NCBI RefSeq assembly: GCF_000003815.2
Contig: NC_049983.1
Coordinates: 25,317,744-25,381,743, forward strand
Source of the DNA: Branchiostoma floridae
Taxonomy: Eukaryota > Chordata > Leptocardii > Amphioxiformes > Branchiostomatidae
Reading direction: 5' to 3'
Length of the DNA stretch: 64,000 bases
The translations under genes were made by a program, and so were the position numbers. Positions 1 through 40,300 of the stretch are shown here, in pieces. Within the stretch, counting starts at the first letter, position 1. Every line of letters starts with the position of its first letter. Under the pieces are notes generated by a model. That model saw only the letters and a list, made by a program, of their open reading frames with translations. It did no database searches and was not told the DNA's origin.

Positions 1-770
1 ACTACGAATTGCGTAAAATTAAATTGGCTGATTACGCTCTACGTAGAACTTATGGGGACACATGTTATAACCATAACGGTCGCAACACACAAGTGTTTGG
101 AGACCCTGCCGCGCCACAACATGTCCCAATTAGTTTCGCTGGCCACGAGTTTAACGCGTAACGAAGAATGAAAGCCCGTTGTGTCGGCCTCTGTAGTCGT
201 TAACAGTTGTCATTTTTCATGAAAACGTCGCCAGTCTTGACGATAGCCTCGAAGCCAGGGTCAACACTGGCCAACGTGCCTCAGCTGTAGGCCCAACATG
301 GCCCAAGTAAATCTTACCACAGGCTCCCTGAGTTTACCCTGGATGCCAGACTTTTTCCAGGTCCCGAACAGACCAAATGACTAAGATCCGGAAGAAGGGT
401 AGCCTGTGATAAGATTTCCCTGTAATTATGTTGGCCCTGAATCTCGGAGTTAACTTGTATAGGCCCTGGAAAAAGTCTGGTACCCCGGCTAACTCAACAG
501 GCGTCCACACGTCCCTGTATAAACACTCAGGTCCAATCCCTCATGTTGGCGGCTGTTGTGTTGACACTTCTACAATGTGTGCACGGTGACAAACAGGCAC
601 TCAACATCAAGGAAGGAAGTTGAAGAGAAAATTTAAAGCTAGCCCCTCGTCAGAGTCAAGAACAACCGATTAGTTTTGATAGTTGATTGGATCCTTGTGT
701 GTAAGGGGGACGGTGCTGGAGTTCTTCTGACCGTCAGGGAAGTTTTACGGCCATACTACAGTGCTGAAAT
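1..770. other. 5' flank of NAALADase copy A
   Basis: No coding exon seen. From about 535 to 770 it is homologous, in inverted form, to 41988-42230 upstream of copy B (for example GTTGTGTTGACACTTCTACA), so the duplicated block includes the promoter-proximal region. No convincing TATA box. Confidence 0.6.
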
Positions 771-3700
771 ATGGGGAACATGTCCAGGAATCGCGTGATT
801 CTAATCTCGGTAGTTGTCGGGGTGCTGGGGATCGTTGTCGGCGTGCTGATCGGGTACTTCTCCCGAGGATCGGCTCCGTCCACCGGGGAGTTCGCCGACT
901 TCCTCTCGGAGGGGGACGCGTGGGTCGCCGAGGCGCTGAGGGACGAGATCAGCGCTGAAAACATCGAGGAAAACTTACGGTAGGATGTGTACCAAGTAAA
1001 CTATGTTACAGTGTACAGGCCTGCCTGAGAGGAGGGTAACGACCTCTGAATTTAATATGAAATGAAATTTCTGCTCAATATACGTGCAAAACGCAAGAAC
1101 AGACCACACAGTTGATTAGGGGTTGGTCAGTAACGTTAGAACTTTGTATCGAAAATGAATCCAGAGCTACGATATTTAAGACTATATATATATTTATTTG
1201 CAAATCCATGCCCGTAGGCTAATTGCAATGATACAGACAGTGAAAAGTAACAAGTGTCTATTCTAAATACACACACGTCAGCTATCTATGTACATGCTTC
1301 TACTTTCTTTACTGGGTGGTTTGACTTCTTCTTTGGAGGCAGTGGCTGATGAAAAGTCCCACTTCTTTAATGATTAGTGGGTTCTGTGATTTTAACAGAA
1401 ATATAGTTTTTTTGAGGTCTACTAACTGGTGAAAAGTTGGAAATAATGTTTTGATTGTGTCAAAAAGGTTGTTTCTTTCGTCCTCATAATGGGGGCAGTT
1501 ACATATAAAATGTATTTCATCTTCCACTGTATCCGTCGCACAGTATTTACACAATCTATCTTGAACTGGCACTTTTTTATAACGACCCTTTTCTATCTCT
1601 AGTGAGTGAGCACTGATTCTTATCTTACATACATTGAATCTCTTGTCAGCGTCGTTCTGGTATAGATAGGTTTCCATGGCATATTCGGTTTTGATATGTT
1701 TGTAAAATCTTAGTTTGCCGTTATCTTTAGACAATTGCTGGAAAAAGGTTTGGACATAACGTTTACATAACGTATATAACGTTTCTCTGCATCGTGTTCT
1801 TATCTATATATCGGAGTAGGTACGTGTACATATAAACGTTTTGTTACCACAATTGGTCTCGCAGATTTTGGCCCTTTTCCAAGAGTCCTCAACTCCGTAA
1901 GCACCCTGTATCTAAACAGTATTGTAGCTATGGGTGTAAATATCAATCTCCAAGCACACGCGTGCTGGATTTTGGCAAGCACGATTAATGATCATTAATG
2001 GAGACAATATTTCATACACAAAATCATATGCCTGAGACTTTGAATAATCTCCGAGCAGAGTGGTATCTGTATCTGTATCTATATAGCTGGTATAACCGCC
2101 CTTCGGCGTAACACACCAGCTATCATGGTACCGGAGGTATTCTAGCGCGTTTTTGCTGGTCCTTGTAAGTTGTAGCCGGCCATGGCCTCCCGAAACTCTC
2201 CTCTTATCTTCTAGCCGAAGGTTGAACTAGAGCTAGAACAGGATCAAGATGAATTCCAGGCCACTCCCAACCCAGCGCCGACCTTGGTTGTGAAGTTGTC
2301 GGGAGCAAAGTTAGTAGAGCTAGGTCGTTGGAAACGTCCTTAATGTGTGACACTGACAGGGGCATAACGTGCGTGGCATGATAAAGTCAAGCTTTAATAA
2401 GCACCTCTTTCATGTTCCAAGCAGAAGTTGAGTCGGGGTAATAGTGCCCGGGATTTCGTACCTCTTCCTCGGCGATAAGAAATTCTCCTACAACACTGCC
2501 GCAGTATACCCCCGACCCAACCTCTGCTTGGAGAATAGATCATAAAGGAGGCCCAATAAGTCCACAATAGTGAGAGCTTGTTAAACACAAGCTAATAACG
2601 TGTCCATTTACTGTGACATCATGTTGACGATGTACATGATGGTGTACAAACAGGAGGCGTCGTAAAGTTATCGCGCGGCACACCGCAAACCGCCAGTCTG
2701 GTTCACGCCCACAACCAAATTCCTCTGCACCTCAGTAACACGAGTGCGGATATTCAAGTCCGTATCAGTTCCGTGTTTACATCTAAGTGCAACGAACCTC
2801 TTGCTTGAGTGAGGCAAAAGTCCACCTGGCCTCACGGTCAATGTCCCGAATCTAAAAGCGTATATATGTTTGGGGAGGCCAAACCGTTACTTCGTCTTAG
2901 CTTAATTTGGGGGGTCAAACTACCATCTCAAGAAGTTGTTTGGATGCTATATTCATTTTACTCAGTTATTCTTTCTCTCTTTCTTTCTCTCTTTCTCTCT
3001 TTCTTTCTCTCTCTCTTTCTTTCTTTCTCTCTTTCTCTCTTTCTTTCTTTCTTTCTTTTACTTTGGCAGCTTGGAAAACGACTAAGCTTACCAGTGTCTG
3101 CTTGGAGATTACAACATCCCGTCCTCTGCACCCAGCTGGACAATGTAAAAGTGAGACGCGCAAGTCTGGATATCGTTGGCCAATTAACAATCACTTGACA
3201 GGTCAGGGAAATGCTGACATAGCTGTGGTGCAACACGCAAACATACAACCTCGTTAATCTCCAAGCAGATACTACGATAGCATAACATAGTGTGTCAAAG
3301 CTGGCAGAGGAGTGAAGCTGGCCAAGGAGTGTGTATGCGACCGGTGCCCGTTTGACTCCCTTAGGCCGGCTATACTCCTTGGCCAGCTTTGATACTATCT
3401 TATGGCACCGTAGTATCTGCTGGGAGATTACAACCTCGTTATTCTCACGTTGAGACTGGTTTAGGCAGACTGCGATCACAACTGGACATAGGTGCTCTAC
3501 CGGGCAGTACGCAGGCTGTTTTGTTGTCTGTTTGTCAGGCACTATGGCCCGTAAGGACGAACAATTGACAGTACATTAAACAAAAAAAAACAACAAAAAA
3601 ACAATCATCTACTACTTAAGATAAAAATACAGGATTCACACTGTTTTTGGTTTTTTGCACTTTCGAGTGTGAACCCTACGTGGGCCCGTGGAACACCTTG

Positions 3701-6700
3701 CTGCTCTCATGGTATTTTCCCGGTCGGGCACCGGGTTGAATTCAAGTCGAACGTAAAATGAACCCGGGACCCAGTAGCAAACAGACGCCATGACCTACCC
3801 GTGGGGTACACAGAGGGGTGCACCCGGTATCCAATAGTCCACTGGGACAAATTTGTGGCTTCGGAGCCCGGCTGCAATTGGGACCGTAGCCTTAATTGCG
3901 ATATATCATTCTTTTCAGATATGTAAACACTTCAAGCTATAAACGTCTCATGCATGCATCTATAGAAAACACTTTTCCCAACAGCAATATCGACAACAAC
4001 CAAAGAATGGTTTAAGGGCGAGCTTTTGATTTCACGTACAGTCATAAACATTAAGTATAGGCACAAAGTGATGAATCTTGCTTCCAGAAAAGGCTCCAGT
4101 TCAATGTCCCATTCTTTGTTTGTTTAAGCGATGATATATTGTAAAGCTTTTCGCGTTCGTAGCAATCAAGCCAGTCTTGAATATTTTGAAAGGAAAACAT
4201 TACAACGCCTTATATGAAGGCTATGATTAACCCTAAATCAACGTTAACTATAGATACATCGACTAGCACACTTTTGTGTGGTACTCTGTTACCGCTGTAT
4301 AATTTGTCCTCTCATCCTACTTAATGAGTTTTGGATTGTAGACTTCGGCCGAAATAGGTTGAAGAATTGGCCAGGAGAGTTAGTCCTCAGAAAGGCTATC
4401 TGTTTCCCTGTGGTGTCAAAACTCCCCTGGTAAATATTCTCTCCATAGCCAGCGTAATTAGTCTGTTACTAAGTGTTAGAGACTATGATTGATACTGGTA
4501 CGTTAATAGCACTAACCCGTACTCTACGTCACTCTAAGGTACCTGACGTCAGGACCTCATCTCGCGGGCACGCCCGAGAGCAAGGCGTACGCTGATTGGG
4601 TGGTGCAGAAATGGCGGGAACAGGGCTTGGACGACGCTTACGTCACCAACTACAACATCCTACTGTCCTACCCGGACAGGGACAGTCCCAGCTACATAGC
4701 ACTGCTAGATGAGTAAGTACAAATACATAGCAATGCTAGATGAGTAAGTATAGCTACATAGCACTGCTAGATGAGTAAGTACAGCTACGTAGCACTTCTA
4801 GATGGGTAAGTACAGCTACATAGCACTGCTAGATGAGTAAGCACAGCTAAAAAGCGCTGCTAGATGAGTAAGTACAGCTACGTAGCACTGCTAGATGAGT
4901 AAGTATAGCTACATAGCACTGCTAGTTGGGTAAGTATAGCTACATAGCACTGCTAGATGAGTAAGTACAGCTACATAGCACTGCTAGATGAGTAAGTATA
5001 GCTACATAGCACTGCTAGTTGGGTAAGTATAGCTACATAGCACTGCTAGATGGGTACGTACAACTACATAGCACTGCTAGATGGGTAAGTACAGCTACAT
5101 AGCACTGCTAGATGGGTAAGTAAAGCTACATAGCACTGCTAGTTGGGTAAGTATAGCTACATAGCACTGCTAGATGAGTAAGTACAGCTACATAGCACTG
5201 CTAGATGAGTAAGTATAGCTACATAGCACTGCTAGATGGGTAAGTACAGCTACACAGCACTGCTAGATGAGTAAGTACAGCTACATAACACTGCTAGATG
5301 GGTAAGTACAGCTACATAGCACTGCTAGATGGGTAAGTAAAGCTACATAGCACTGCTAGATTAGTACGTACAGCTACATAGCATTGCTAGATGAGTAAGT
5401 GCAGCTACATAACACTGCTAGATGAGTAAGTACAGCTACATAGCACTGTTAGATAAGTAAGTGCAGCTACATAGAACTGCTAGATGAGTAAGTACAGCTA
5501 CATAACACTGATAGATAGGCAAGTACATCTACATAGCAATGCTGGATGGGTAAGTACAGCTACATAGCACTGCTAGATGAGTAAGTATATATAGCACTCC
5601 TGATGGGTACGGGCATCTATATAGCCCTGCTACATTGGTAAGTATAGCTACATAGCATTGCTAAGTGGGAAAGTACATGGCAAGATGTGTAAGTTCGGCT
5701 ACATTGCATGTGTAGTTACGGATACATATCCCTGCTAGATATGTTAGTGTAGCTACAAAACTCTGCTAGATGGTTAGATGTGAGTACAGCTACATAGCTC
5801 TATAAGCACAGTCACATATTCCTGCTAGATCGGTAGTTACTGCAGCTATGTAGCCCTAGATTACTAAATACAAGAATACCCATGACCTTATGGCCCCTTG
5901 TTACCATAGAAGTGTAGCTACAGAACTCTGCTAGATGGTTGGATGTGAGTATAGCAACACAGCTCCATAAGCACAGTCACATAGCACTGCTAGATCGGTA
6001 GTTACTGCAGCTATGTAGCCCTAGATTACTAAATACAAGAAGCCAGTCTTAGCTCTGCTTTTACATCCATGCTATTTTTTTGGCTATTATTTGCTTCGTA
6101 CTTTGTAACATTGGAAAATGGTTTCTGGTGATCAAGTTACACCTAACCTTATATGACCCGTTGTTGCCATAGAAACGACAGGGAGCGGTTCCGGACGGCC
6201 GTGTTTGAAGAAGCGGTTGACGCGGAGACGGAGCAGTGGCTGTCGTCCATCGTGCAGCCCTTCAACGCCTACTCCGCGCCCGGCACTGTGCAGGTGAGGG
6301 CAGTGGCGTAATAACTACGTGTTTGGCACTAGCCTGGTTACCAAACCCCAGCCCGATCTCAAGTATCTATCGTGCAGGGGTCTGGCAGGATGACATAGGA
6401 ACTCTTCTCAATTTTGCCCATATAGTGGGCAGAAAACTCCACCAATAGAACAGTAGCAGGATCAACAGGAGGTAATTACACCCTACCATGACTGGTTAAA
6501 GACCCCCAACTGTATTTTTTAAATCCATAACAGTGACCACTAAGTACCTGATTCGCTACCGTGATAGCCTGCTGACCAACTGTGCTGTGTTGTAGCTGGC
6601 TACCTGTGGTGTGAGTGGTCATCAATCCTAGGTTCTCCTCCCTCTGATCAAGGGCCTTCGAGAACCTTTCTACAGCCATCCTGCCAGACCCCAACACGAA

Positions 6701-9700
6701 AGATATTTGAGGTTGGGGTATGGTATCCAGGCTAGTTTGGCACAGAATCCAAGAGGTTCCGGGTTCAAATCCTGCCTTGTCACGGATCTTGTATCCTTGT
6801 TAAAGGCAATTAACGAGACTTTTCTCGCTTTACTCAGGTAGAAATGAGTACCTACATGTAGCTTCGACTAGGGACTGTCGGATTGAAAGGAGGTCCCGTG
6901 TTTGAGGAGAGCCACATCTGGAGCACGTTGAAGAACCCACCACACATGAAAAGAGTAGCGTATAGGTGGGGGCAGGTCCTCAGCGGTACATCAGTCGATT
7001 ATTTAATGGATCGATCGGCCAATCAATGACCGATCTATCAATTAAACGATCAATCCGTTTACATCATCATCTGGTCTTAGCTTGTTGACGTACACATGGG
7101 TCCAGGGGTTCTATCAAACAATATTGATTTCACAGAAGCTTATTCTGTTGTGGCGTCACGTGACTATGACGTCTCTATGTGTTCGCAATGTTGGTGGTTT
7201 GAAGTAAAATGTTCTTGTGTATTCTTGCTAGCACTACCAGTAAGGTTTAACATTTGTGTGTAGCTTTACCTTGTAGATTGTAAGCTTCTACAAAATGATA
7301 CAGAGATGTTGACAGTATAGTATGGCCTGTGGCCTATGTTTGTCCCGGTGCGCGCTGGCATAGGAAGGGCAGGCGTCGGAGGCACGGCGCGTCGTACCAC
7401 TGGTGCTCATGCTTCTTAGTGACGTTGCTGTACTTGGGAGAGAATACAACGCAATCTTCCACGTAGTAGAAGTTGTTTGGCTGTCCTGGAGCCCACAGGG
7501 TGTAGCCGCCAAGCGCCGTACCGTCCAGCCATTCGAAGCTTCCCTCCTCACTCTGATCGTGCAGGCCGAACCAGAAGGACGAGCGGTTGTGGACGGAGGT
7601 GTACAGGGAGATCAGGAAGGCGTTGGTCTCGGCGTCTCGGGGCATGGCGAGGGTGCCGCCGTCTTGGCGACAGAAGAGAGCCGACTGCCAAAAGTTCTTG
7701 TCTATGTTGAACGCTTTATAGCAGGTGTCACCCGACTTGGCGTATCCTTCGTGACAGTCTATATCCTCCGCCTTAACCGTCATATTTTGAAGACACTGGT
7801 TAAAGATTTGCTCTCGCCACTTGCTCTTATTTTCATCGTAAGATTGTGGCATCTTATCCATTTTCTCAAGACACTGTAACAATGCATTGAGTAATAGGCT
7901 TTTCTGACTGTTCAAATTATGTTTCAAAGCGTCTACAGTGACGGTCAGTTGCGATATTTCCCCTTTCGTGATGGATACCACAACGGCGAGTGCTAGCACT
8001 ACGGCGACCAGGGCGACCACTACAGCAGTGCAGGAGGTCACGCAGATTGGGTGGGAGCGGATGAAACTACAGACAGCACGGAAGCCGCTTACTTCACCCG
8101 GGAGTATTTCATCTGTGGACGTGTCGCCATGGAGAATGACACTTATGGTGTTATCATCCCTTTCTTGGAGTGACTCCGCCTTCTCTCTTTGGAGTGACTC
8201 CGCCTGCTTCGCATCTGCTTGGAGTGGCTTCTCTGCCGACTGCCGGTGTGGATGGGCTCTTTGGTTCGGAGGCGCGCTCTCCGAAATCTGTAGCTCCACG
8301 CTAACCGCTTCCGGCTCTGTTACCTCGTCAGTAGAAGATTGCCGCCAATGCCGGTCTTCCTGAATGCGCTGCCACTTGACCTGTGCGGTGTTGTCACGGC
8401 GGACACGCCCGCGCGAACCACCCTGATGGCCGGGAGGGGGTAGGGACGGCGGCCCGATGGTTTGGCCGCTGCCGGGCCCAGAGGGACGGAACAGAACAGG
8501 GTGTGCTTCCTCGTACATTTTGGCTGTACTGACTGACAAAAAAAAAACGCAGTGTATTACAGCAAATAATATATGAATGTGTTACCTAAGATACAATGAT
8601 TAGTCTGAAGAAAAGGTTGCACCTTTGCCCTTATATGGAAAGACAGGTGAGGTTTGACGTAGGTGTTTTGTCTACAAGTAGCAGACTAATTTCCTTGGGA
8701 AAGAAATCAATTTTCCATCAGCCATGGACTAGTTGCTGGGACTTGCAATTTTCATTTCTAGTGTGTCTTTACATACATAAGAATCTAAGACTTCGGGGTT
8801 TAAGGCATTTTACACCAATTTTCCCACCTGACGTAGGTGAAAATGTGTACCTAGCTTTGGTTAGGGGCGTCCTCTCAGATGGGGCATTAATCTCCGTTTT
8901 TTGTAGAGTATTTGAATGTTCCGAACATTTACTTGATTTTGCGTTAAAATCTTAATTGGATCAACAAGTTGATGTTTGAAGGTACAGTTTGCCACCGTTA
9001 AAACCACTACAGTAGGAGAAGCCGTTTAATTGCACACCCCATTTCATTTGCCAGCATATTTCGTGCAATTATCAGGCTGGTGCAACAAAGTGAGGTCATT
9101 CAGCTGGACTGCACCACCACGAGATTCTGGGATTCCGTTCAATCAAGGAGGTTAAAAAAAAGACCTCCTTGGTTCAATTAACAAAAGAGTGCGGTAATCC
9201 GCTGTGTAATGAACTGTATAATGACGTTAATCATCGTAAGTCACGTGCACGCACAAAGCTGTTTACATTACTTTCCGTTTGCTCTGAAGAATTTGCTACT
9301 CTCTGTTCGATAGATAAATTCAACTACATGTACATTCTGGGACTTGATAGCCCCAAGGAGTTAACCTCCTTGATAGCCCTTACTGTGCGCAAGTAGCCAA
9401 ATATATCCACGAATGCTTATACCGTGGAACTAATAGTGTAAATGACATGCTAGACCCAATATGTTGATTTATTCATACCTATAGAAATACATATATGTCT
9501 GTTTAGTTGTACTGTAATTAGTTGTTATAGACCCTTCGAAAGTCACTGCATCTTTGTCGTGTCATTAAAGATTCTATGTTGAAACTTGCCACTGTAGTAA
9601 CTACCGTAAATGTCCCTATTTTTGCCATGTTCCAGGGATGTTACAACTCGCAACTGTAGTAGCTACTGTAAATCCCCCTACTTTCGCCATGTTACTATCA

Positions 9701-12700
9701 ATATTGCCAGTAGTATCTACCGTAAATGCCCCTATTTCCGCCCTACTCCAGGGAGATGTGGTGTACGTGAACTACGCACGCGTGGAGGACTACGAGCGCC
9801 TGCGGGACCAGCTGGGCATTGACGTCACGGGGAAGGTCGTCATCGCGCGCTACGGGAAGATATTCCGCGGAGAAAAGGTAGGGGGCGCTTCTCATCCGTC
9901 TTTGTACCGTCAACTAGCCTAGTATCGCATTGCTTTGGCAGTGTTGCCATGCACTGTACTATGTACAATTGCCGAGAAATCTGTATCTGTATCTGTATCT
10001 ATATAGCCGGTATAACCGCCATTCGGCGTAACACACCAGCTTCGCAGGCACGCGGCGCGGCAGCAGCTGGTTATATTACACTGAACCGGATCCGTCACAC
10101 CTAGCTTTTGCACATCTAACTGCAAGCGTTCTTTAAAACTATCCAGAGAAGATGCCGGTATATGCCCCTACTGTACTTGGTGATAACAAATTCCAATCTA
10201 CGATAGTTCTGGGAAAATACGAATTTTTGAACACATCAATCCTAGCTTGGAAACTCTGGTACTTGAAGTCATGGCTGTTTCTTGTTCTTTTTTGAGCTGG
10301 TATTAGATACTTATCAGTCGGTACGTCCACCAGTCGGTACGTCCTTCTGTCTTCAAGTGATGTCCACTGTAGATCTGTTTTCATTTTGGTAACACTAGCA
10401 TCCCTGTTGTAGTTGTTTGTACAAAATCGGGCAGCTTGGTTCTGTACCCTTTCAAGTTTATCTTTGTCTTTCTTTGTATACGGATCCCATACTGTTGCAG
10501 CATATTCAAGGTTAGGTCTTACCAGTGACGTGTATGCAAGTGATTTTACGCGGGCTGGGCATGCCCACAAGTTACGTTTGATCACTCCCAATGTCTGTTT
10601 AGCCTTGGTTGTTATTTTGTTAACATGGACACCCCACTTCAGCCCAGTTGTTAACGTAACACCTAGGTATGGGTGGCTTTTTGTGGTTGCTAATGTCTGA
10701 CCACAAAACTGGTAAGGGGACACATTTGGTGTTCGTTTGTTCGTTATGTGCATGATATAGCACTTATCAGGATTGAACTGCATAAGCCATTTCCTTTGCC
10801 ATTCTTCCAGGGTGTTCAGATCTTTCTGAAGAAGTTGTGAGTCATTCTTTGCAGATACCTCTATATATAGCATTGAAATCATTCATTCACTACAAACAGT
10901 TATATCTACAGAGGAACTGTTGCTTTTAGTTAAATTTCACTAGACAAAAGTTGTATGGTCATGTCATGAACATAAAATATCTTCCAAGCAAACTTCACCT
11001 AACCTAAAAGAATATCAATACATGGACTTGTACGTTGTTTATAGTATTACGCACTCCATATACGTGTGACCGGTCCCTTACAAAGTAGTCGGGAACAAAG
11101 TCGTCGGAGAGTCCTAAATGTGTGACAGGGAATCTTTCGCTTCCTTCAAGCAAAATACCCACAGACGTGGGTCCAGCGGGACATTCAACTTTGACATTAC
11201 CCACAAAGCATCGCGCTCCAGCACACATCCGCACTCCAAACCGCGAACTGGCTCATTGTTTTCATTTTTGTCCTTTTAGGCGAAATACTCGCAGAAGTTC
11301 GGCGCCGCCGATCTGGGGGAAAGTCATAGTAGGGTGCTAAATGTGTGACAGGGGCTTAATAGAGAACTTTATGTTTCCTATAGGCAGAATGCCCACAGAC
11401 GTGGGTTCAGCGGGGCTTTGACGTGGGTTTAACTTTGACATTACCCACAAAGCATTACACTGCATATCCGACTTTCAAACCACGAACTAGCTCTTTCCCC
11501 CCCCCCCCCCCATTTTTTTCCTGTAGGCGAAATACTTGCAGCAGTTCGGCGCCGCCACCGGTCTGATGCTGTACACGGACCCGGAGGACACGGTGGGGAG
11601 CGGCGGGGAGGCGGACATGTACCCGCGCGGCTGGGAGCAAAGTCGTAGGAGAGTCCTAACTGACTCATTGTTGTTGTTGTTGTTGTTGTTTTCCTATAGG
11701 CGAAATACTCGCAGGAGTTCGGCGCCGCCACCGGTCTGATGCTGTACACGGACCCGGAGGACACGGTGGGGAGCGGCGGGGAGGCGGACATGTACCCGCG
11801 CGGCTGGGAGCAAAGTCGTAGGAGCTAGAGTCCTACTGACTCATTGTTGTTGTTGTTTTCCTATAGGCGAAATACTCGCAGGAGTTCGGCGCCGCCGGCC
11901 TGATCCTGTACACGGACCCGGAGGACACGGTGGGGAGCGGCGGGGAGGCGGACATGTAGCACTCCAAACCGCGAACTGACTCATTGTTATCGTTATCATT
12001 TATCCTCCAGGCTAAATACTCGCAGGAGTTCGGCGCGGCCGGACTGATCCTGTACACGGACCCGGAGGACACGGTGGGGAGCGGCCGGGAGGCGGACATG
12101 TAGCACTCCAAACCGCGAACTGACTCATTGTTATCGTTATTATTTATCCTTCAGGCTAAATATTCGCAGGAGTTCGGCGCTGCTGGACTGATCCTGTACA
12201 CGGACCCGGAGGACACGGTGGGGAGCGGCGGGGAGGCGGACATGTACCCGCGCGGCTGGTACCTGCCGGGGTCAGGTGTGCAGAGGGGAAACATCCTCAA
12301 CAGCGCAGGCGCAGGAGAGCCGCTCACACCGGGATATCCCGCTAAAGGTAGGGCGACTCACATGTCATAAAAAAAAAACGTCTTAAGATGCGCATGTGCA
12401 ACGTGATTTATTCTGGGTAATATTTCGAATTCTATATATTACCCACAATGCATCACTCTGCACATGCGTACTTCAAACCGTGACCTAGCTATTAATTTCA
12501 TCTATCTTCAAAATTCGAATTTCATAGATAAAGAATTATGATTCTTTCATGACGTTCTTGTTATCTTTTAGATAGTACATTTACGTCCTGCGTCATATTC
12601 TACGTTGGAAATCAAGAGTAACATTATTTAAAGTTTGGACGCTCAACGGTTGCTCGGGGTATGTTTTTAGGCCCTACCCTCCGTCGATTTTACAATCGGG

Positions 12701-15700
12701 CGACCTTCCTTCGATCAACAAATGCATTCGATGCTAGTCGACTGTGTAACTGGGGTTTTAAACTGTGTTTACATGAATCTCTCGCTGGCGGAGAAGAAGG
12801 GGCGCTAAGAGCAAGATTTATTCAAACAGTAGCTTTAGGGCTGTAAAGCTACTTCTCACCGCTAGGCGTCGTAGCAAGAAGGTGTGGTCCAAAACGTGGC
12901 TGAGTTTGTTTAAACTCGTTATTAATGTATTTTTTCCCTCCGCAGACTACATGTTCCGGATTGAGCAGAACGAGACAGACGCGCTGGCGAGGATACCCGT
13001 ACATCCCATCGGCTACAGCGACGCCTGGCACATCCTCAAGTACTGCAGTTTCTTTTATGCTACATATGGCAGTGGAATCTCCGGTTCCGTGTGTTTAAAT
13101 TAACAAAGGGTTAAGCATTTGTATAATTGACGTTTAGCACATACATAGCTGTCCGAGAATAGCGTCAGTTCATCTATAGTATGGTTGATCTGTCATTTGA
13201 AAAAAAAGGCTCTAGTGGAAGATTAGAACTACATTGTTTTATGTAGCTCTTGCTTATTTTCATCACCATTTGGATCAAGGGGAGTAAACGTATCTCCACA
13301 ACAAATCAAAAATGTAGGAGCCTTAACATATTCGCTACTATTCACTTTTCAGTGCGATCGGAGGCCCAGCCGCCCCGGCAGAGTGGGCGGGAGGACTCAA
13401 CATCACCTACCGCCTGGGACCGGGCTTCGACTCGGCAAGCTGGGCTCGGTAAGGACTTCAAACTGTCTAGTTGTCTTATAGAGTCACCAGCAAGAAACCC
13501 TGAGTACTTTAAGTGTCGTATTTGAAAAACAATCTTAAAGTTTGCAACACCTCGGATAAGATCGAGTGGATTTAACAAAAATAAATCGTACATTATTGTC
13601 CGCCATATTGGTTCCATGTCACATCATTTACTCACCAACATAGCGCACGGTCGTCATCTTGGATCCCTGCAGGTCACCAACATGGCGTCGATGTCTAGTC
13701 ACATTTGTGAGCTCTGAAGTCCAGTGCAAACATTTTCAATTTGATTTGTCAAGTATATCCTTGTCAAATCATATGCTTGACAAACACTTTCGTATCCTTG
13801 ACATACGTTTTTGCGCCTCCCCAGGTCCATAAAGATGAACATCCGCGTGCGGAACGAACGGAGAGACATCTTCAACACAGTCGGCGTCATCAGGGGGAGA
13901 GTGGAGCCTGGTGTGGATCATTTACTTATCAAGAAAGGCAGCCGACATTTAATGAATAGCTGTTTTGTTGGCCACGTAAAGTGACGAACAAGACAGCACA
14001 TGTCAAACCTGGATAAAAAAAATCTGATATATTTAGGACAATGGATATTGGGGCGTAGCACCATCCAATTGCTATCAGCGAGTGTTGGACCACCGGATGT
14101 AATCGGATGGTTCCCCGGCTAAACTTCATCTTATCGATCAGCATTTATGTCAGTCTGGCGCATGACCGTATACCGGACTCACTGTTGTAACAATATTGCA
14201 TTAAAGTTTGCCATAAAGTTTTTCAAACATCTTTCCAGACCGTTACGTGATCATGGGGAACCACCGTGACTCCTGGACCCTGGGCGCGGTGGACCCGACC
14301 AGCGGCACCGCCGTTATGGTGGAGGTGACCCGGGCCTTCATGAGGATGGTCGAACGGGGTGAGCTTTGATGAAATCTTTACTCAAAATACCATCTTGTAG
14401 ACTTTAAAAAAATATGAATTATATTACCATGTACCATTACTTCGAGGAGAATTGCACTTAAAGTCAAGTCTAGCTAGTTACAAAGAGAACGTAAGATCTT
14501 GCTCACATCACGATTACTAGTAACTAAAATGTCTTGAACTTAAGACCTTTGGGCACACAGCTACTGAATTTATGGACATGGAACTGCAATGTGATTTGGA
14601 GTTGGGTGGCGGAGAAATTTTGATAGCTCTCGAATGGTTGATCACATTCCCTCTACGATAGGTCGACGGTCAACAATAGATCATTGTTAACGGGAGGTGC
14701 CCCAACACGGTACGCTTTTTCTTGCGCTCAAACTCATGGCGCTCCATCGCTAGTTGCCTGAGAGTGGTCAAATTTTGATGACTGAATTTTTTACTCATAG
14801 ATTTGAACAACATACTTGAATAAGAAATGCATTCATGTGGTTCATGAACCTTTCGCGCTGCGTGTTACGAGCGGCAAACACTGAGAGACAATTTCGTGTA
14901 TGTAACCTTCCAATTTTGTGCTACGCGGCACAGTGTGCCTAACTCGGTACGCTTTTTTTTATATTTTGCTCTCTTCAGAAGTAAGTGGTAAATCTCCGTA
15001 CACAGAAAAAAATTAATAGTATGATATTTTAGCTTTCTTTTGACAGTAAAATCGTGACTGTATGTACTTCTTGTCTCACATGAGGAAGGCTGTACCTAGA
15101 ACAATCTAGCTGATGTTTTACGGGCAACGGGCTGAATACACTGATTGTGAATGCCCGACTAAAAAAACCATTACGAAAAAACGACACCGCCAAGATCAAC
15201 AAAACTCTGTCTGATTATATGAAAATATCATCTACATCTCTCTGTCAAGTCTTATTTTCATAGACAGCACGAATCATTTGTTACAGTCAAATAAATCTTT
15301 GGAGCGTTCTCTAGTCTGCCACCTTCACGGCCACACTCCCTTGGGAGTACAATGGTGGCAATGTTTATGTCGCTTCCTTTTGGTTACTTTTCTACTCAAC
15401 AAACATTTGAAGACCCATATTCATAGTGTTTTATGGAGATTTATTTATGTGTATCATGGCAGTTGTGTGACTGCTTGGATGAGTTCGTATAGTTAGCGAC
15501 ACGAGCCGCCAATACGCAGAGGCCGGTGACCGCAGTGGTTCAGCACTGTCAACATTACTGTTAGAATTCTGCTCTTAAAAAACATGAAGTAAATATGTTA
15601 AAGTATACTTGGAATGCAAATTAAAGCTGTGTGCATGGACTTGGTTTATTTACCTTTGTAATCAGCATAGTCAGTGGCAACAAACACGGTGTACTTATGG

Positions 15701-18700
15701 ATAATAAGATCAGCAAAAAATCCGTACCGTCTTACGACGGGGACCGTCTTAGGGCGGCCCCCGTTATCAATCATGCTCTTAAAAATGTGTACCTTAATGG
15801 ATGCAGATAATGACTTACGCGTTCCGTTACAGAAACGTTTTGTCGTTATTTCCTACAGGCTGGAGACCGCGGAGATCGCTGGTGTTCTGTACCTGGGACG
15901 GGGAGGAGTATGGGATACACGGTTCCATGGAGCACGTAGAGGTACACAACTTTTTCACGCAAACTGAGAACGTTGCTCATGTTTTAGTATTGTGGAGCAA
16001 GTTCTAAGACGTCTTATGTCATACCCAGGCCTACATAGCGCTCGATAAAGGTGTTCCGGACCGGGTGATAAAAAGCCGTATCACACAGGCTTCGAAGTTT
16101 TATCACACAGGCTTCCATCGAATAATTCAAACGCACTCTGCGCACGCCGGGTCCGGCGCGTTCGAAAATTCGAATACCTGATTCGGACGTTGGAATTTAT
16201 TTTGTAACATTTTTTTTTCGAGGACACAAACTTTTCGCAACTTCTGGCGCATTTGAAAAAAAGACGGTGTATTCTATATTCATTTTCCACTCCTTACTTA
16301 ATCAGCTCCTTCTTTCAGGAGTTCCACAAAAAGCTGGCGTCGAGGGCGGTTGTCTACATCAACATCGACACAGCAGTCAGAGGTGAGCTGCTGATGCTCA
16401 TGAATAGATCAATGACGTGTCGCGACGTCACTGATTATTTGGTTCTTAAGATTCAGGACTGTAACTGAATTCAGGTACGTCCAAAGACATCAGCCGGTAC
16501 GCCGAAGGGCGGTTATACTGGCTATATAGATACATATACAGATATAGATCAGCTCATTTGAATACCATTAAGAGGCACAACCACACTTATGCTGTTTTTC
16601 ATCAGCAATGTCAAACTTAGTTGCTGTCACACATGTTTATAAAAGAATAAAGCACTTTTGGTCAAAATGCACCACAGTTACAATTTTGATTCATATTTCT
16701 ATCACAGCGACCTACACGTTGCGACCCAGAATATCCCCATCTGCTCGGCAAGAAGTACGGGAAGCCACCAAACGGGTAAATCATTTCCTCTGAAAGAAAA
16801 TTAATTTGCTAACTCTCGTTACTAGTTGATTACGTGACTGGTAATGTTTCATATGGAATGTAAAGGTTAAGTTTCGCTCCAGGACATACTAATACATGAT
16901 CCTTTATCATGGGTGGCCCAGTACATCTGGTACGCGACCATGCCAACGCGTGACTCGGTCAAAAGTGAAAAGGTCAATGGTCATAAATAACTAGAAGTCT
17001 ATCGTTCCTTTTGAAAAGTTCATCAATTGCAATCTTCACGTATTGTGCTTTGTAATTCGTAATGTTCCATGGCCTCTATGAAGATCTGAGAGAGACAGAG
17101 CGTCCTAATTTTCGCGTTTTTAACAGAAAATAGAAATAGATAGAAAAATATTATTCACCATTTCTTACTGTTCTCCAGTTGCCATGGCCGGAAACCGTCC
17201 CAGAAGGCACTACGATGTACGACGTTTGGCGCAAGCGCAGTCCGATCGACCCAAACGACGCGGATACACAACCAAGGTACATTATAAAATATTAATATAT
17301 CTCACTCAATAACCTCATACACCATTCGGAAGAAGTATGAGCAGCGACGCCGACCGGAATTGTGGTGGATTATAGTCAAACAGGAAGGCCCGTGAGACAT
17401 AGATAAATCACGTCTGGATAGTGTTTATGTGCGAAGTGACACATTGTTTGAGACGAGAACTGTTTACAATTTAGGGGCCTTCACTTTTGACATATTACCC
17501 ACAATTCCTGCCACTGCGCATGCGACATCGGGAACCATGAACGTGCTTATAGCCTTGCTACCCAATAACTTGTTAACGAGCTCTCAGTTCAGTTCCGAGC
17601 TCTTATGGCTTGTGTATGACTTACAAGAAATGTTTCCTTTCGCTCCAACCAGAATCAGTCTCCTGGGCTCAGGCAGCGACTTTGCCGGCTTCGTGCATAG
17701 AGTTGGGGTGTCCTGCATTGACCTCAGCTTCACCTTTGACCCTGTGAGTCATTTCCTCTCATTCACTTAAAGATCAATGTTTCGTCTTGTAGAAGGAAGA
17801 AACTTAAACGGTTCTTTTCATTGTTTTTTTTACAGCTCTTGACAAGAAACATCAAATCCATTTATATCTTATATCTACTTACACTCTTTTTTGGTCATCA
17901 TGTTGAACAAAGTTTATATAAAATGACTGCAAAAGAGGTTTACATGTGAGTCGTACCTCCTGCAGGCACTTGGTGTGTCAAACTACCCCCTGTACCACAC
18001 TGGGTACGAGACCTTCCATCTCCAGGCCGACATCATTGACCCTGGGTTCAAGTTCAACCGCGGCATCGCCCAGCTGGCGGCTGACCTGGTCAGGGGGTTC
18101 GCTGACCCCGTCATCCTGCCCTTTGACCTGATGGAATATGCTAATTACCTTGGAGTCATGCGCTCTGACCTGCAGGCGGAGTACGGCACCGATTTGGCCA
18201 ATCAGGGCATTTCTTCAGGTAAGTATGGATTTAAACAAACATAGAGGTTTTTGTTCATTTTCATAGGAGTTTCTATATGTTCTACTGTTAAAAATGCATC
18301 TTTTAAAAGTCCTTAAAATTCTCCACATTAAATAGAAAGAGTGTTTAACAGGTCAGTTTGATGCTGTTTTTTACTCCAGACTCTCTGGACTCGGCCATCC
18401 AAAACTTCACAGACGCCGCCCAAGCCTTCCACAGCCGGCTGCAGGCCATCGACAAGAACAAGTAAGCTGGGAGAGGGAATCTGTCTCGTGAGGGTAACGT
18501 TGTTAGAAAGAGAGCAACATTCTAAGAACCTTAAACATGGTTTGGTTCCTGCCTTAAAGATAGACGTCAACATTTCGATAACGATCCGAAGTGTCCACTC
18601 TATGCAAGTCGCTTTTCTTTCTTTTCTTAATGTCCCACCTGAATATGAATATCCTTTATCTAAACTGGATGACCTCGTCGATATGCATCGCTCTCACCTC

Positions 18701-19498
18701 AGGTACTATGTGGGATCTTGGGAGAAAAAATACATATATACTCGTAAACACTGTAATTTCACTGCTGAATAAACAAACAATCTAACAATAAAAAGCTTCA
18801 AACTTTAAACCAATAACGCAATTTTATTTCCCTACGTACCCTCCCAGCCCGTTCGAAGTGCGCATGTTCAACGATCAGCTGATGCAGTTGGAGCGCGCCT
18901 TCATCGACCCGCTAGGCCTGCCGGGAAGACCCTTCTACAGGTACGTACATCAAGGTCAAACAACGTTGATATCACCAAGGACGAAACCCCATGTACAGAA
19001 TTTTTGGTTTATTCTGTGTCCTTCTCCGAGAAGACTGTTAATCTACTTCGAAGTGGTGACCTCACGGATATAATAATTCTTCAATGGGTCAGAGGGCATA
19101 GGTGCTTAAAAGTCAATACCGCGCAGCGTTTCGAAGATTTTCTTAGCCCTGAGAGAACAGAGAATCTGGAGTTACAAAGAATTTTTTGTTCCATACCTCG
19201 TTTGTTTGTTGACATAACTCATTTGTTGTTGTTTATAGAGAACCTGGAGTTGCAAAGAACTTTTGTTACATGTCTTGCTTGTTTGTTGACATTTGTTGTT
19301 GTTTACAGACACACCTTGATGGCGCCCAGTAAACACAACAAGTACGTGTCGGACCCCTTCCCCGGCTTGACCGACACCATCTTCGACGCCGAGCGGTCGA
19401 CAGACCCGGCACCCGCCTGGAGGGAGGTGGCCAAGCAGATGTCAATCATCGCCTTCAATATCCAATCAGCGGCCAGCACCCTGATGACGCCGGCTTAA
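771..19498 (+). CDS. NAALADase / glutamate carboxypeptidase II-type zinc peptidase, copy A (18 exons)
   Basis: Exons: 771-979, 4539-4712, 6173-6293, 9752-9877, 12155-12347, 12946-13039, 13353-13448, 13825-13910, 14239-14358, 15859-15941, 16319-16382, 16708-16775, 17179-17276, 17653-17743, 17966-18218, 18380-18461, 18848-18940, 19309-19498. Phases join to 2241 nt (746 aa plus stop; human GCPII is 750 aa). The start ATG has an in-frame TGA two codons upstream. A short cytosolic N-terminus is followed by a membrane anchor at about residues 7-30, giving a type II ectoenzyme, then PA/protease-associated, M28 peptidase and C-terminal dimerisation domains. The zinc and catalytic set is present: H375 (in GNHRDSW), D385, E422/E423 (WDGEEYG), D451 (NIDTA) and H552 (YPLYHTGYE). 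S1' residues in VIARYGK and HNKY are kept. The segment aligned to the GCPII arginine patch reads [10 protein letters not shown], so two of its three arginines are missing; substrate preference may be closer to NAALADase-like peptidases. Family assignment is sure; the orthologue is not. Confidence 0.95.
1150..1740 (-). pseudogene. LINE 3'-end fragment (CCHC-like C-terminus), intron 1 of copy A
   Basis: The minus-strand ORF (1734-1309) has the C-terminal module of many LINE ORF2 proteins: [30 protein letters not shown] and [12 protein letters not shown]. Its 3' flank has GCAATTAGCC and GGGCATG followed by TTGCAAATAAA, shared with the fragments at 42500 and 56460. The N-terminal polymerase is missing. 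Confidence 0.75.
2055..2130 (-). mobile_element. LINE 3'-terminal scrap with TATCTG tail
   Basis: GTATCTGTATCTGTATCTAT then AGCTGGTATAACCGCC and TTCGGCGTAACACACCAGC match the 3' end of the retrotransposon at 9985-10130. No coding part remains. Confidence 0.65.
2968..3060 (+). repeat. (CTTT)n/(CT)n microsatellite, intron 1 of copy A
   Basis: Pure pyrimidine run of about 90 bp. The charged Lys/Arg/Glu ORFs read from the other strand here are artefacts of it. Confidence 0.97.
3254..3430. mobile_element. Stem-loop MITE (CTCCAAGCAGA ends), intron 1 of copy A
   Basis: TTAATCTCCAAGCAGATACT at the left pairs with AGTATCTGCTGGGAGATTA at the right. TCAAAGCTGGC and GCCAGCTTTGATACTATCTT pair internally. 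ACAACCTCGTT flanks both sides as a direct repeat. Related copies at 29463 and 47668. Confidence 0.75.
4690..5650 (+). repeat. 31-bp minisatellite of exon 2/intron 2 junctions (copy A)
   Basis: About 30 imperfect units of 31 bp begin at the end of exon 2 and run into intron 2. Each unit repeats the exon end (CATAGCACTGCTAGATGA) followed by GTAAGTAC or GTAAGTAT, so most units carry a full GTAAGT donor. Units decay towards the distal end. Only the first donor (4713) keeps the frame: any later one would read GAT GAG TAA. The same array lies in intron 2 of copy B, so it predates the gene duplication. Confidence 0.95.
6297..7050 (+). mobile_element. tRNA-derived SINE in intron 3 of copy A, split by a MITE
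   Basis: The head GGGCAGTGGCGTA begins four bases inside the donor of exon 3. After the MITE at 6330-6735 it resumes with GGTTCCGGGTTCAAATCC, a good pol III B box. The body continues to about 7050 and matches the minus-strand SINE of copy B (38110-38435), so the insertion predates the duplication. The 3' boundary is approximate. Confidence 0.75.
6330..6735. mobile_element. hAT-like MITE inserted into the intron 3 SINE
   Basis: Terminal inverted repeats start TAGCCTGGTTACCAAACC and end GGTATCCAGGCTAG. TTTGGCAC (6322-6329 and 6736-6743) flanks it as an 8-bp direct repeat, and the uninterrupted SINE in copy B has a single TTTGGCAC. An 8-bp target duplication is typical of the hAT superfamily. 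If the element starts one base earlier, the duplication is 7 bp. No transposase is encoded. Confidence 0.85.
7334..8518 (-). CDS. C-type lectin-like type II membrane protein, nested antisense in intron 3 of copy A
   Basis: One uninterrupted coding exon of 394 aa. The ATG at 8518-8516 (AAAATGT context) is the first in-frame ATG; the ORF is open a little further upstream but without a Met. A Pro/Gln/Glu-rich, probably cytosolic region (1-160) precedes a membrane segment at about 161-184 ([17 protein letters not shown]), a stalk, and a C-type lectin domain at about 254-390. The domain has six cysteines (CHEG, CYK, CRQ, EDC, APC, FLC), so it is the long form. It also has WLDG, QPNN at the usual EPN/QPD position, EDC, and WYD in place of WND, so calcium and sugar binding are possible but not certain. 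On the coding strand a T-rich tract ending in CAG lies about 20 nt before the ATG, suggesting a 3' splice site and an unseen 5' UTR exon. The gene is absent from the matching 0.7-kb intron of copy B. Confidence 0.85.
   Translation of the reverse strand: MYEEAHPVLFRPSGPGSGQTIGPPSLPPPGHQGGSRGRVRRDNTAQVKWQRIQEDRHWRQSSTDEVTEPEAVSVELQISESAPPNQRAHPHRQSAEKPLQADAKQAESLQREKAESLQERDDNTISVILHGDTSTDEILPGEVSGFRAVCSFIRSHPICVTSCTAVVVALVAVVLALAVVVSITKGEISQLTVTVDALKHNLNSQKSLLLNALLQCLEKMDKMPQSYDENKSKWREQIFNQCLQNMTVKAEDIDCHEGYAKSGDTCYKAFNIDKNFWQSALFCRQDGGTLAMPRDAETNAFLISLYTSVHNRSSFWFGLHDQSEEGSFEWLDGTALGGYTLWAPGQPNNFYYVEDCVVFSPKYSNVTKKHEHQWYDAPCLRRLPFLCQRAPGQT
9169..9580 (+). pseudogene. LINE C-terminal fragment, second family, next to the lectin gene
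   Basis: Degenerate plus-strand match to the 51630 fragment ([20 protein letters not shown], then [11 protein letters not shown]-like DNA in another frame) and the same 3' UTR ending GTCGTGTCATTAAAGATTC. At least one frameshift. It lies between the lectin gene and exon 4, in the segment that copy B lacks. Confidence 0.7.
9985..10885 (-). pseudogene. Non-LTR retrotransposon reverse transcriptase fragment in intron 4 of copy A
   Basis: The minus strand encodes the part of a LINE reverse transcriptase just after the catalytic YADD box ([63 protein letters not shown]). It is 5' truncated; the YADD itself is missing. Reading stops near 10139, and a shift of frame resumes the usual C-terminus ([11 protein letters not shown]), so it carries at least one frameshift. 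The 3' end is a short GATACA/TATCTG repeat tail at about 9985-10005. Dead copy. Confidence 0.88.
11280..12154 (+). repeat. Five tandem partial copies of exon 5 with its 3' splice site (copy A only)
   Basis: Acceptor plus the 5' part of exon 5 recur at 11280, 11527, 11700, 11867 and 12011, before the intact exon at 12155. Spacing is 173, 167, 144 and 144 bp for the last five. Each begins after a pyrimidine tract and AG with GCGAAATACT or GCTAAATACT. The 11527 and 11700 copies run about 110 nt, to CGCGGCTGG, then switch to GAGCAAAGTCGTAGGAG. The 11867 and 12011 copies stop at GACATGTAG, an in-frame stop. The 11280 copy is only about 35 nt. None has a recognisable donor, so they look like decoy acceptors rather than alternative exons. 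Copy B has one exon 5 and no array. Confidence 0.92.
16495..16555 (+). mobile_element. LINE 3'-terminal scrap, plus orientation, intron 11 of copy A
   Basis: GGTACGCCGAAGGGCGG, TTATACTGGCTATATAG and an ATACAGATATAG tail are the reverse complement of the same 3' end seen at 2055 and 9985. Confidence 0.65.
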
Positions 19499-20131
19499 CT
19501 GTCATGTGCGAGGTCCAATCGTAGGAGAGATATATTCATAGCTTCCAATCAGCTACCAGCACCCTGATGACGCCGGCCTAACCGTGCCAACTGTCAACTG
19601 TGATGTCTAATCATAGTAACGGACCATTCTAGCGTCATGTTTTTTCTTCCAATCACCAGCGGGTATACGGCTGACGCATTTTAAACATATAACTTGAAAT
19701 ATCGCAAGAGCCTTTAGTTCAAGTTTCCGCAGCAATCTTTCTCAGGTGTTTATCTTCTGTGCTCGTTAGTAAGTTTTGATAAAACTTTTTTTTTCAATTA
19801 GCTGAATGTATGTACTTTCACAGAACAAAAATGCTTCATATGTGTGGGTAAGCAGTTGCAAGTGAAAGGCTCACGGATTGTTTGATTATTTATTTTCAAT
19901 TGTACGTAAGACATGTCTGAAAGTAACATGCCGTGGATTTAATGTAAATCATTAGGAAATCATAAAGAAGACTCCATGTAAACGGCCTGAACTCAGACAG
20001 GACCGGCTTCATTTATGGCATCCATTTTCCCGAGAAGTAAGACAAGAGTGAGAAATTCCTGAAGACGCCGGCCGGCCACGGTCACAAATTCAGACACATT
20101 TGGCTGTGTTTTATTGCTATTATTGTGCTTA

Positions 20132-37300: not shown

Positions 37301-40300
37301 ACCAATCAACTTCTAAAATATCATGTAAACCCGTTTTTTTTGGGGGGGGGGCGAAATCGCTAAAGGGGGGCGAGGTAGGGGGGCGAGATCACTAACCGGG
37401 GAGGGCGAGATCGCTAGTGATTTCGCCCCGGGGGGGGGGGGGGGGGCGAGATCGCTAGTGATTTCGCCCCCGGGGGGCGAGATCACGGGGGGGCGAGAAC
37501 GCTGTCACACCGGTACCCTCTTGTTACTTTGCTCCTAATTACTCCCCCAACCAAAGTAGGTGCCTAACCTTTAGAAGCGCCCCCTACCTTTTCTCCCCGG
37601 AATATCTTCCCGTAGCGCGCGATGACGACCTTCCCCGTGACGTCAATGCCCAGCTGGTCCCGCAGGCGCTCGTAGTCCTCCACGCGTGCGTAGTTCACGT
37701 ACACCACATCTCCCTGGAGGATGGCGGAAATAGGGGCATTTACGGTAGCTACAACAGAGGCAGGTTGTACCATGATTAACGCTATGATAGTAGTTTTTAC
37801 GGTGGCGCAGACTGTACCTTCACATTTCAACTTGATTTTTACTTAAAATCAAAACAGATGTTTGGAACAGTTCCTTCATATGACAAAAAGCTCTGAGGTT
37901 GAGAAGTGACTTTCCCAATGGCAAAACACCAGGACCTGCTAGGAATTTGAACCTGGGACCAGAGAGAACACATGGAACCATGTTAAAAGCAATTAAAAGT
38001 TACAATACAAACAAAATCGATTTACCGGTCGATCCATCGACTGACTTATTGATTGATTGATTGATTGATTGATCCATTGATCAAACGATGATGATCTAAT
38101 CTTCTTTTTCTTTCTTTTTGAGTCAGAAGATTCTGTAGCCTTTAATTATTAACTGACTTAGATCCACTCACACCGGGAAGGACGCCTACTACTCTTTTCA
38201 ATGAGTGTGATGGGTTCTTCATCTTGATCGAGGTATGGCTCTCCTCAAACACGGGGCCTCCATTTAATCCGAGGGACGTCCCTAGTCGAAGCTAGGTACT
38301 CATTTCTACCTGAGTAATGGAGGTTAGTCTCATAAAGTGCCTTTAACAAGGATACAAGATCTGTGACAAGACACTGGATTTGAACCCGGAACCTCTTGGA
38401 GTCTGTGCCAAACACGTAGCCATACGCCACTGCCCCACCTGCACAGTGCCGGGTGCGGAGTAGGCGTTGAAGGGCTGCACGATGGACGACAGCCACTGCT
38501 CCGTCTCCGCGTCAACAGCCTCCTCAAACACGGCCGTCCGGAACCGCTCCCTGTCGTTTCTATGGCAACAAGGGTCATGAGGTCAACTTGATCACCAGAC
38601 ACAATTTTGACACGGTTGCAAAATACTAGTACTATGTTAGTGCTAGGGTTGTACTTCCTGTGCTTGGATATTTAGGGCTACGTGGCTGAAGTAACACATC
38701 TACTGATATCTACATAGCAGGGTTATGGGGCTGTACTTACATATCTACCAGGCTCATATAACCGCGCATCTAGCAGGTGTATATAGCTGTACCTGCCAAT
38801 CTAGGAGCGCTATGTGGCTGTGCTTACCCATTCAGCAGCGATAAGTAGTTGTGCTTACTCATCTAGTAGTGCTATGTAGCTGTACTTACTCATCTAGGTG
38901 TGCTATGTAGATGTACTTGCCCATCTAGCAGTGTTATGTAGCTGTACTTACCCGTCTAGCGGTGCTATGTAGCTGTACTTACTCATCTAGCAGTGCTATG
39001 TAGCTGCACTTACTCATCTAGCAGTGCTATGTAGCTGTACTTACCCATATAGCAGTGCTATGTAGCTGCACTTACTCATCTAACAGTACTATGTAGCTGT
39101 ACTTACCCAATTAGCAGTGCTATGTATCTGTACTTACCCAACTAGCAGTGCTATGTAGCTGTACTTACTCATCTAGCAGCGCTATGTAACTGTACTTACC
39201 CATCTAGCAGTGCTATGTATCTGTACTTACTCATCTAACAGTACTATGTAGCTGCACTTACCCAATTAGCAGTGCTATGTATCTGTACTTACCCAACTAG
39301 TAGTGCTATGTAGCTGTACTTACTCATCTAGCAGCGCTATGTAACTGTACTTACCCATCTAGCAGTGCTGTGTAGCTGTACTTACCCTACTAGCAGTGCT
39401 ATGTAACTATACTTACTCATCTAGCAGTGCTATGTAGCTGTACTTACCCATCTAGCAGTGCTATGTAGCTGTACTTACCCATCTAGCAGTGTTTTGTAGC
39501 TGTACTTACTCATCTAGCAGTGCTATGTAGCTGTACTTACCCATCTAGCAGTGCTATGTAACTGTACTTACTCATCTAGCAGTGCTATGTAGCTGCACTT
39601 ACCCATCTAGCAGTGCTATATAGCTGTACTTACTTATCTAGCAGTGCTATGTTGCTGTACTTACTCATCTAGCAGTGCTATATTGCTGTTCTTACTCATC
39701 TAACAGTGCTATGTTGCTGTAATTACGTATCTAGCAGTGCTATGTAGCTGTACTTACCCGTCTAGCAGTGCTATATTGCTGTACTTACTTATCTAGTAGT
39801 GCTATGTAGCTGTACTTACTCATCTAGCAGTGCTATGTAGCTGTACTTACCCAACCAGCAGTGCTATATAGCTGTACTTACTTATCTAGCAGTGCTATGT
39901 AACTGTACTTACTCATCTAGCAGTGCTATGTAGCTGTACTTACTCATCTAGCAGTGCTATGTAGCTGTACTTACTCATCTAGCAGTGCTATATAGCTGTA
40001 CTTACTCATCTAGCGGTGCTATGTAGCTGTACTTACTCATCTAGCAGTGCTATGTAGCTGGGGCTGTCCCTGTCCGGGTAGGACAGTAGGATGTTGTAAT
40101 CGGTGACGTAAGCGTCGTCCAAGCCCTGTTCCCGCCATTTCTGCACCACCCAATCAGCGTAGGCCTTGCCCTCGGGCGTTCCCGCGAGATGTGGTTTTGA
40201 CGTCAAGTACCTTAGAGTGACGTTAAGTTAGGATTAGCGTCTAGGATCCCTGTCTCTAACAGACTAATAATGCTGGCTATGGAGGGAGTATTAACCAGGG

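Follow-up and report, generated by a model that had tools for sequence, protein, structure and literature searches.

How does a cell keep choosing the first of many look-alike 5' splice sites? Two minisatellite arrays pose this question in the window, by which we mean the whole 64,000-nucleotide stretch of Branchiostoma floridae DNA that was analysed. In each of two paralogous genes, the first donor of intron 2 (donor 1) would compete with copies of itself set at 31-nt steps, 28 of them in one gene and 39 in the other. Since these competitors are identical, near-identical or better-pairing, position and exon context would be left to decide the choice. If donor 1 is used faithfully, nature has set up an experiment on splice-site choice here, with ready controls: the paralogue pair itself, single-copy paralogues, and METAP1-like, TALPID3-like and dynein arrays elsewhere in the genome.

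An inverted pair of GCPII/NAALADase-like genes

Comparing the window with itself, we found two GCPII/NAALADase-like genes that are inverted relative to each other, gene 1 on the plus strand (similarity over 368-19548) and its paralogue, gene 2, on the minus strand (42384-28248). Leaving aside the array and one stretch upstream, we counted 15 separate places where a stretch of reading frame is conserved; they run from exon 1, which has a hydrophobic stretch, to the TFR-dimer exon. The coding part of gene 1 exon 1 is at 771..979 on the plus strand (its start codon is uncertain, and the hydrophobic stretch was read by eye); 71 aa of this exon are common to both genes at 93% identity. The exon ends in AACTTACG/GTAGGA (the slash marks the boundary), and its final CG with the first G of exon 2 encodes R.

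Exon 2 is 174 nt long (4539..4712 on the plus strand in gene 1; 40037..40210 on the minus strand in gene 2), is backed by homology to human glutamate carboxypeptidase 2 (GCPII), and in gene 1 is followed by the donor at 4713. We placed its acceptor at CACTCTAAG/G, which both genes have, because an alternative AG of gene 1 is absent from gene 2. Exon 3 is at 6173..6293 on the plus strand in gene 1 (acceptor CATAG/A) and at 38439..38559 on the minus strand in gene 2. When joined, exons 2 and 3 of gene 1 align to human GCPII with E 2e-15 and are gapless at the junction. Hence, GCPII homology supports the joining of exon 2 to exon 3 at donor 1.

The Pfam search matched PF02225 (E 5e-12) and PF04253 (E 1e-11) on the gene; the match to PF04389 comes from a single exon and stands at 21.1 bits vs a curated cut-off of 21.3 (E 3e-4), and a fourth gene stretch matched no family in this search. 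Taken with the GCPII similarity, the peptidase M28, PA and TFR-dimer domains indicate a GCPII/NAALADase-like gene, so that the NAALADase identity given in the first-pass annotation holds.

Over the 199 codons of exons 2-5, genes 1 and 2 show 24 nucleotide and 2 amino-acid differences (dN 0.0044, dS 0.172), and the end of intron 1 has diverged by 20%. By these substitution rates, both paralogous proteins are constrained with the arrays in place. Hence, since both genes are constrained despite their arrays, it can be argued indirectly that donor 1 works.

The repeat unit is a copied exon 2/intron 2 junction

The first-pass annotation described an array in gene 1 whose unit takes 23 nt from the end of exon 2 and 8 nt from the start of intron 2, with about 30 consecutive near-consensus donors up to position 5650. 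This anatomy was borne out. Unit 1 (4690-4720) consists of 23 nt of exon 2, which ends at 4712, and GTAAGTAC, and the gapless exon 2-exon 3 join against human GCPII places the exon end at the same point of the unit. Array 1 (4690..5588, plus strand) has 29 ungapped 31-bp units with a donor site in each; GT is kept in 28 of the 29, and the exact GTAAGT in 25. TRF extends it over 4689-5677 (period 31, 32.1 copies, 87% matches, score 1439), and the earlier end point was therefore roughly right. Beyond the ungapped units lies a degenerate distal tail (5589..6020, plus strand) of mismatch-rich units, covered by TRF to 5677 and by self-similarity beyond, with a far end near 6020 by eye.

A second array, absent from that annotation, occupies the equivalent junction of gene 2 (40059-38820, minus strand; TRF 38767-40060, 41.7 copies). 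It has 40 ungapped units of the same 31 bp and the same composition, with GT in 39 and the exact GTAAGT in 35. The finding is thus confirmed and is larger than first noted, being a feature of the gene pair. Intron 2 measures 1460 nt in gene 1 (4713-6172) and 1477 nt in gene 2 (40036-38560); these lengths are nearly equal despite the 11-unit difference between the ungapped arrays.

We searched the whole 513-Mb genome with a 30-mer of the unit, allowing up to 3 mismatches, and found 61 matches (27 plus, 34 minus), a count that is a lower bound, as all our genome counts of repeats are. The backward sequence gave no match genome-wide at the same tolerance. Reading each unit as a repeated micro-exon (21 nt from CAG to the next donor, frame kept; by eye) was dropped because we saw no polypyrimidine tract in the units when reading them by eye.

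The arrays match the mirages of amphioxus genes

The first-pass interpretation, sound in anatomy, frame and gene identity, left unnamed the known class to which such arrays belong. The founding description of this class, the mirages, is reportedly a paper on Adh. Mirages are tandem repeats across exon-intron boundaries of the amphioxus genes Adh3, BflGb6 and BflGb9 (globins), troponin C and PGBD5. Published accounts call their length unstable, report that they leave regular splicing undisturbed and suggest that they may give rise to new introns (PMC3087553, PMC3902484). Their units measure 10-72 bp in Adh3 and 150-160 bp in the globins, where RT-PCR backs them (PMC3087553).

In both of our genes, the repeated unit straddles a genuine exon-intron boundary, from -23 to +8 relative to the exon 2 donor, and its 31 bp fall inside the reported range. 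Turnover is visible as well from the comparison of two paralogues: 29 vs 40 units, a common unit pool, no positional homology in a global alignment and a decayed distal tail. Judged by these features, both arrays are mirages, that is, boundary-spanning minisatellites; like the published cases, which duplicate a 5' or a 3' boundary, they are minisatellite-like and carry splice signals in many units. They have more copies than the published counts (3 and 6 units in BflGb6, 2 to 7 in PGBD5) and differ from the mirages described in those papers in their inverted paralogue pair, their conserved donor cores and the immediate stop behind donor 1. Among the titles and abstract openings of the open-licence literature, we found no report of a mirage-like array in the GCPII/NAALADase family. 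Arrays of this type have been described in lancelets before, and the present two are large ones.

The coding sequence is older than the array

A protein search of the genome gave 15 matches. Three loci other than the pair gave an exon-2-like match, each with a donor at the equivalent place: L033 on C6, L034 on C7 and L035 at C5:17.3M. Within the 3.2 kb examined, the junction is single-copy in L033 and L035. L034 has duplicated this junction independently, giving two copies of ~170-180 bp with 83% identity (1601-1769 and 1774-1955 of the reverse complement), and the second donor there also has G at -1. In L036, L037 and L039, the match continues through the junction position without an intron; in L038, L040, L042 and L043, it stops short of that position; L041 turned out to be exon 3 from the gene at C5:17.3M. 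Hence, because the paralogues have their donor at the equivalent place and two of the three are single-copy there, the array was added later to a coding sequence that already existed.

The 69 units fall into 51 distinct types, 3 of which are common to both arrays, and 16 of 43 sequence variants are common as well, including the linked pair -4T/-1G. These common types, variants and linked pair support, without proving, that the array was probably present before the inverted duplication, unless there was later exchange. Unit-by-unit homology between the arrays was treated as absent (global alignment, p 0.36). With none left, the units appear to have been reshuffled independently within each array, although permutation gave p 0.03 for one unit offset of the two arrays, which counts against such independence. 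We found no support for an exon that acts as master copy and renews the array along a gradient of decay; decay is mainly at the distal edge, and its correlation with position (Spearman) was 0.01 in array 1 (p 0.95) and 0.30 in array 2 (p 0.06).

We propose that the minisatellite was born when the junction of exon 2 and intron 2 was duplicated in tandem, most likely after the split from the C6, C7 and C5:17.3M paralogues and before the inverted duplication, and that repeat turnover has since reshuffled the units inside each array. The model of Rogers derives new introns from duplicated AG/GT proto-splice sites (cited in PMC3087553). Boundary duplication gives spare splice sites both in that model and in the GCPII-like arrays, but in the latter we saw no new intron and, by eye, units without a polypyrimidine tract.

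The first donor is probably used and the copies removed with intron 2

Donor 1 (TGA/GTAAGT, 4713..4718, plus strand) is the sole frame-keeping donor, as had been noted before: in both genes, read-through past it yields the residues LLDE and then directly a stop. As all other donors lead to this immediate stop, the earlier idea that the array buffers donor choice is weakened, and a buffer is unlikely. The array could also compete for U1 snRNP, as the first-pass annotation proposed.

The explanation that we favor, and consider likely, is a mirage at the exon 2/intron 2 junction that is spliced out with intron 2, with donor 1 used by exon definition and the copies unused. Under exon-definition rules, donor 1 would be tied to the nearby exon 2 acceptor and to the 174-nt body of the real exon, and each later copy would be preceded by just 23 nt of exon-like sequence. 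The copies would at most bind U1 without being cut, and splicing of intron 2 would remove the whole array. We infer that donor 1 is the only donor used, that exon definition is the cause and that the copies have no needed function. The array would then be chiefly a tolerated product of repeat expansion; tolerance with the first donor always used, which the first-pass annotation offered as one option, fits the constraint on the two paralogues.

Hiding of the decoys by RNA structure was considered and rejected. Donor 1 is unpaired with a probability of 0.52 and 0.42 in local folds and of 0.38 and 0.53 in longer folds, much as the other donors are (local means, 0.46 and 0.46).

Donor cores change less than the rest of the unit

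One result lies outside tolerance. In the 67 intronic copies, positions +1 to +5 of the donor have 5 mismatches in 335 cells vs 137 in 1742 elsewhere, which is about five-fold fewer mutations than in the rest of the unit. This core is the least-changed of 31 circular windows, a rank test with a floor of 1 in 31, and the column test gave p 0.004. On neighbour-joining trees, parsimony assigned the core 3.0 changes vs 12.3 expected (binomial p 0.001). The constraint is visible in each array alone, weakly in array 1 (3/140 vs 52/728 elsewhere; p 0.014, and 0.05 without the -1 column) and at p 2e-5 in array 2 (2/195 vs 85/1014; 3e-4 without the -1 column). The copies are not independent and come from one locus pair, and counting distinct variants gave p 0.068; the wider donor site (-3 to +6) showed no conservation (p 0.45). 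Tolerance predicts equal columns or the loss of strong decoys. Hence, the donor cores speak against pure tolerance, and mere tolerance may not explain everything; their conservation provides a hint, open to testing, that the copies may not be inert.

We scored decoy strength, roughly, as predicted pairing to the 5' end of U1. Of the 67 intronic copies, 26 pair more than 1 kcal/mol more strongly than donor 1 (10 of 28 in array 1, 16 of 39 in array 2), 36 are within 1 kcal/mol and 5 are weaker. The stronger pairing is due to G at -1. This is the most-changed column, and its A to G change would turn a glutamate codon into a glycine codon if it were in the real exon. The presence of such strong decoys, too, goes against pure tolerance. 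Donor-core conservation within the arrays and the many decoys that pair better than the presumed used donor are what is new here.

U1 is known to protect transcripts from premature polyadenylation. Selection could maintain the intronic donors as a tandem U1 platform that is not cut and that serves exon 2 definition or such protection, a reading that we think unlikely. It gains from the least-changed donor core, lower in each array alone, from a most-changed column whose change strengthens U1 pairing, and from the GT kept in 67 of the 69 units. It also has a precedent in human PAH, where U1 downstream of the natural 5' splice site aids exon definition (PMC5933811). The enhancer in PAH intron 11 is likewise a U1-binding sequence just 3' of the used donor, but it is one region for which exon inclusion was shown experimentally (PMC5933811), whereas the GCPII-like arrays have tens of copies and are known from sequence. 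Against the platform stand the single locus pair with its non-independent units, the p value obtained from distinct variants, and the drop to p 0.05 in array 1 without the -1 column. An array in a dynein heavy chain gene (described below) lacks the constraint, with +5 changed in 4 and +3 in 2 of the 18 units read, and a METAP1-like array varies too little for the comparison. Donor-core constraint is thus not established as a general rule in other arrays. We give little credence to the fuller proposal that selection keeps tens of intronic U1 sites, many of them better than the real donor, as an uncut platform behind exon 2 in both paralogues. If a platform did exist, repeat expansion would have created a class of splicing elements, the boundary minisatellites, and the arrays would be a natural proof that the first among many equal donors can be picked.

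Transcript decay, misassembly and satellite insertion are unlikely

The array could instead lower mRNA output, with downstream donors used in part of the transcripts and the resulting TAA leading to nonsense-mediated decay. The immediate stop at every donor but the first in both genes would suit such a regulator, as would the 26 of 67 decoys that out-pair donor 1 with U1. We consider it quite improbable, however, as the published mirages are reported to leave splicing undisturbed (PMC3087553, PMC3902484) and, in the dynein array, the read-through frame is open at least into the first intronic copy.

Misassembly by collapse or inflation of a repeat is very improbable. Assembling long arrays with the right number of copies is difficult, and the exact copy number of ours may be wrong; yet there are two arrays, in inverted paralogues, their 69 units are of 51 types, and the class is known from amphioxus genes, with RT-PCR for the globins (PMC3087553). 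Insertion of a satellite or mobile repeat that was then recruited as an exon end is extremely unlikely, the length and homogeneity of the arrays notwithstanding, as 61 of 61 genome matches of the unit lie inside the two arrays and the exon end is conserved coding sequence in the paralogues and in human GCPII.

Other mirages and the genomic background

Gene 1 has a second mirage at 11516..12259 (plus strand), made of the acceptor and 5' part of exon 5 in ~4.7 copies of 144-173 bp. The real exon 5 (12155-12347) begins with the last of these copies, and the gene 2 counterpart is a single copy (35922-35818). A possible small 3' mirage lies in the intron before exon 4 (9576..9693, plus strand), where a 62-bp repeat in 1.9 copies resembles, by eye, the sequence adjoining the exon 4 acceptor.

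For the rest of the genome, we used a pattern of three GGTAAGT at 10-40-base spacing and counted, ourselves, 13 loci among the first 100 matches listed. We examined 3 of the 13, picked for length, list position and coding look, and all 3 arrays sit at an exon end, so that mirages are soon encountered in this genome. The METAP1-like array (L045, C3:34095000-34098999) is in an intron and has ~41 copies of ~46 bp with GTAAGT by TRF; the exon joined to the next one matches METAP1 gapless at the junction, with a one-residue gap three residues before it. The dynein heavy chain array (L046, C1:220500-223500) has 36-bp units with ~18 donor-bearing copies at the exon end. Its coding piece matched a PDB sequence (E 6e-7) and no family in the Pfam search. 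At this locus, a larger exon piece also looks duplicated by eye. The TALPID3-like array (L044, C1:413500-417000) has 6 copies of 46 bp at an exon end and, like the NAALADase array, an immediate TAA behind its first donor; the Pfam match of its coding piece is below the curated cut-off (E 7e-5), and the piece matched no solved structure in the PDB. Other minisatellites lie near this locus.

The three-GGTAAGT pattern had 1236 matches vs 328 for the backward 7-mer. A genome-wide enrichment of donors in minisatellites was nonetheless rejected: per locus there was none, with 13 loci vs 19 for the backward control, both counted by eye among the matches listed (C1 to C3:34.1 Mb). Removing 9 ATGG/GAAT-like short repeats leaves 10 of the 19 control loci. 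A background sample combined the window with 20 stretches of C5, each 10 kb long, for 264 kb in all with 12,037 N. It gave 50 TRF rows with a period of at least 10 and at least 3 copies, some of them overlapping, so that they are not 50 arrays. The only rows with GTAAGT are the two of the window, and GTGAGT is in 5 rows of one stretch.

Similar units (TGAATGGTG...TTCAGCACCAAGGACAG...) were seen in arrays or array pieces at C1:28.449M, C2:5.734M and C3:30.119M. Within the window, C-rich repeats of the CTCGCCCCCC form lie in or near gene 2 introns (37390-37520 and 36270-36345), and 49621-50637 is a tandem repeat of 176 bp in 5.9 copies.
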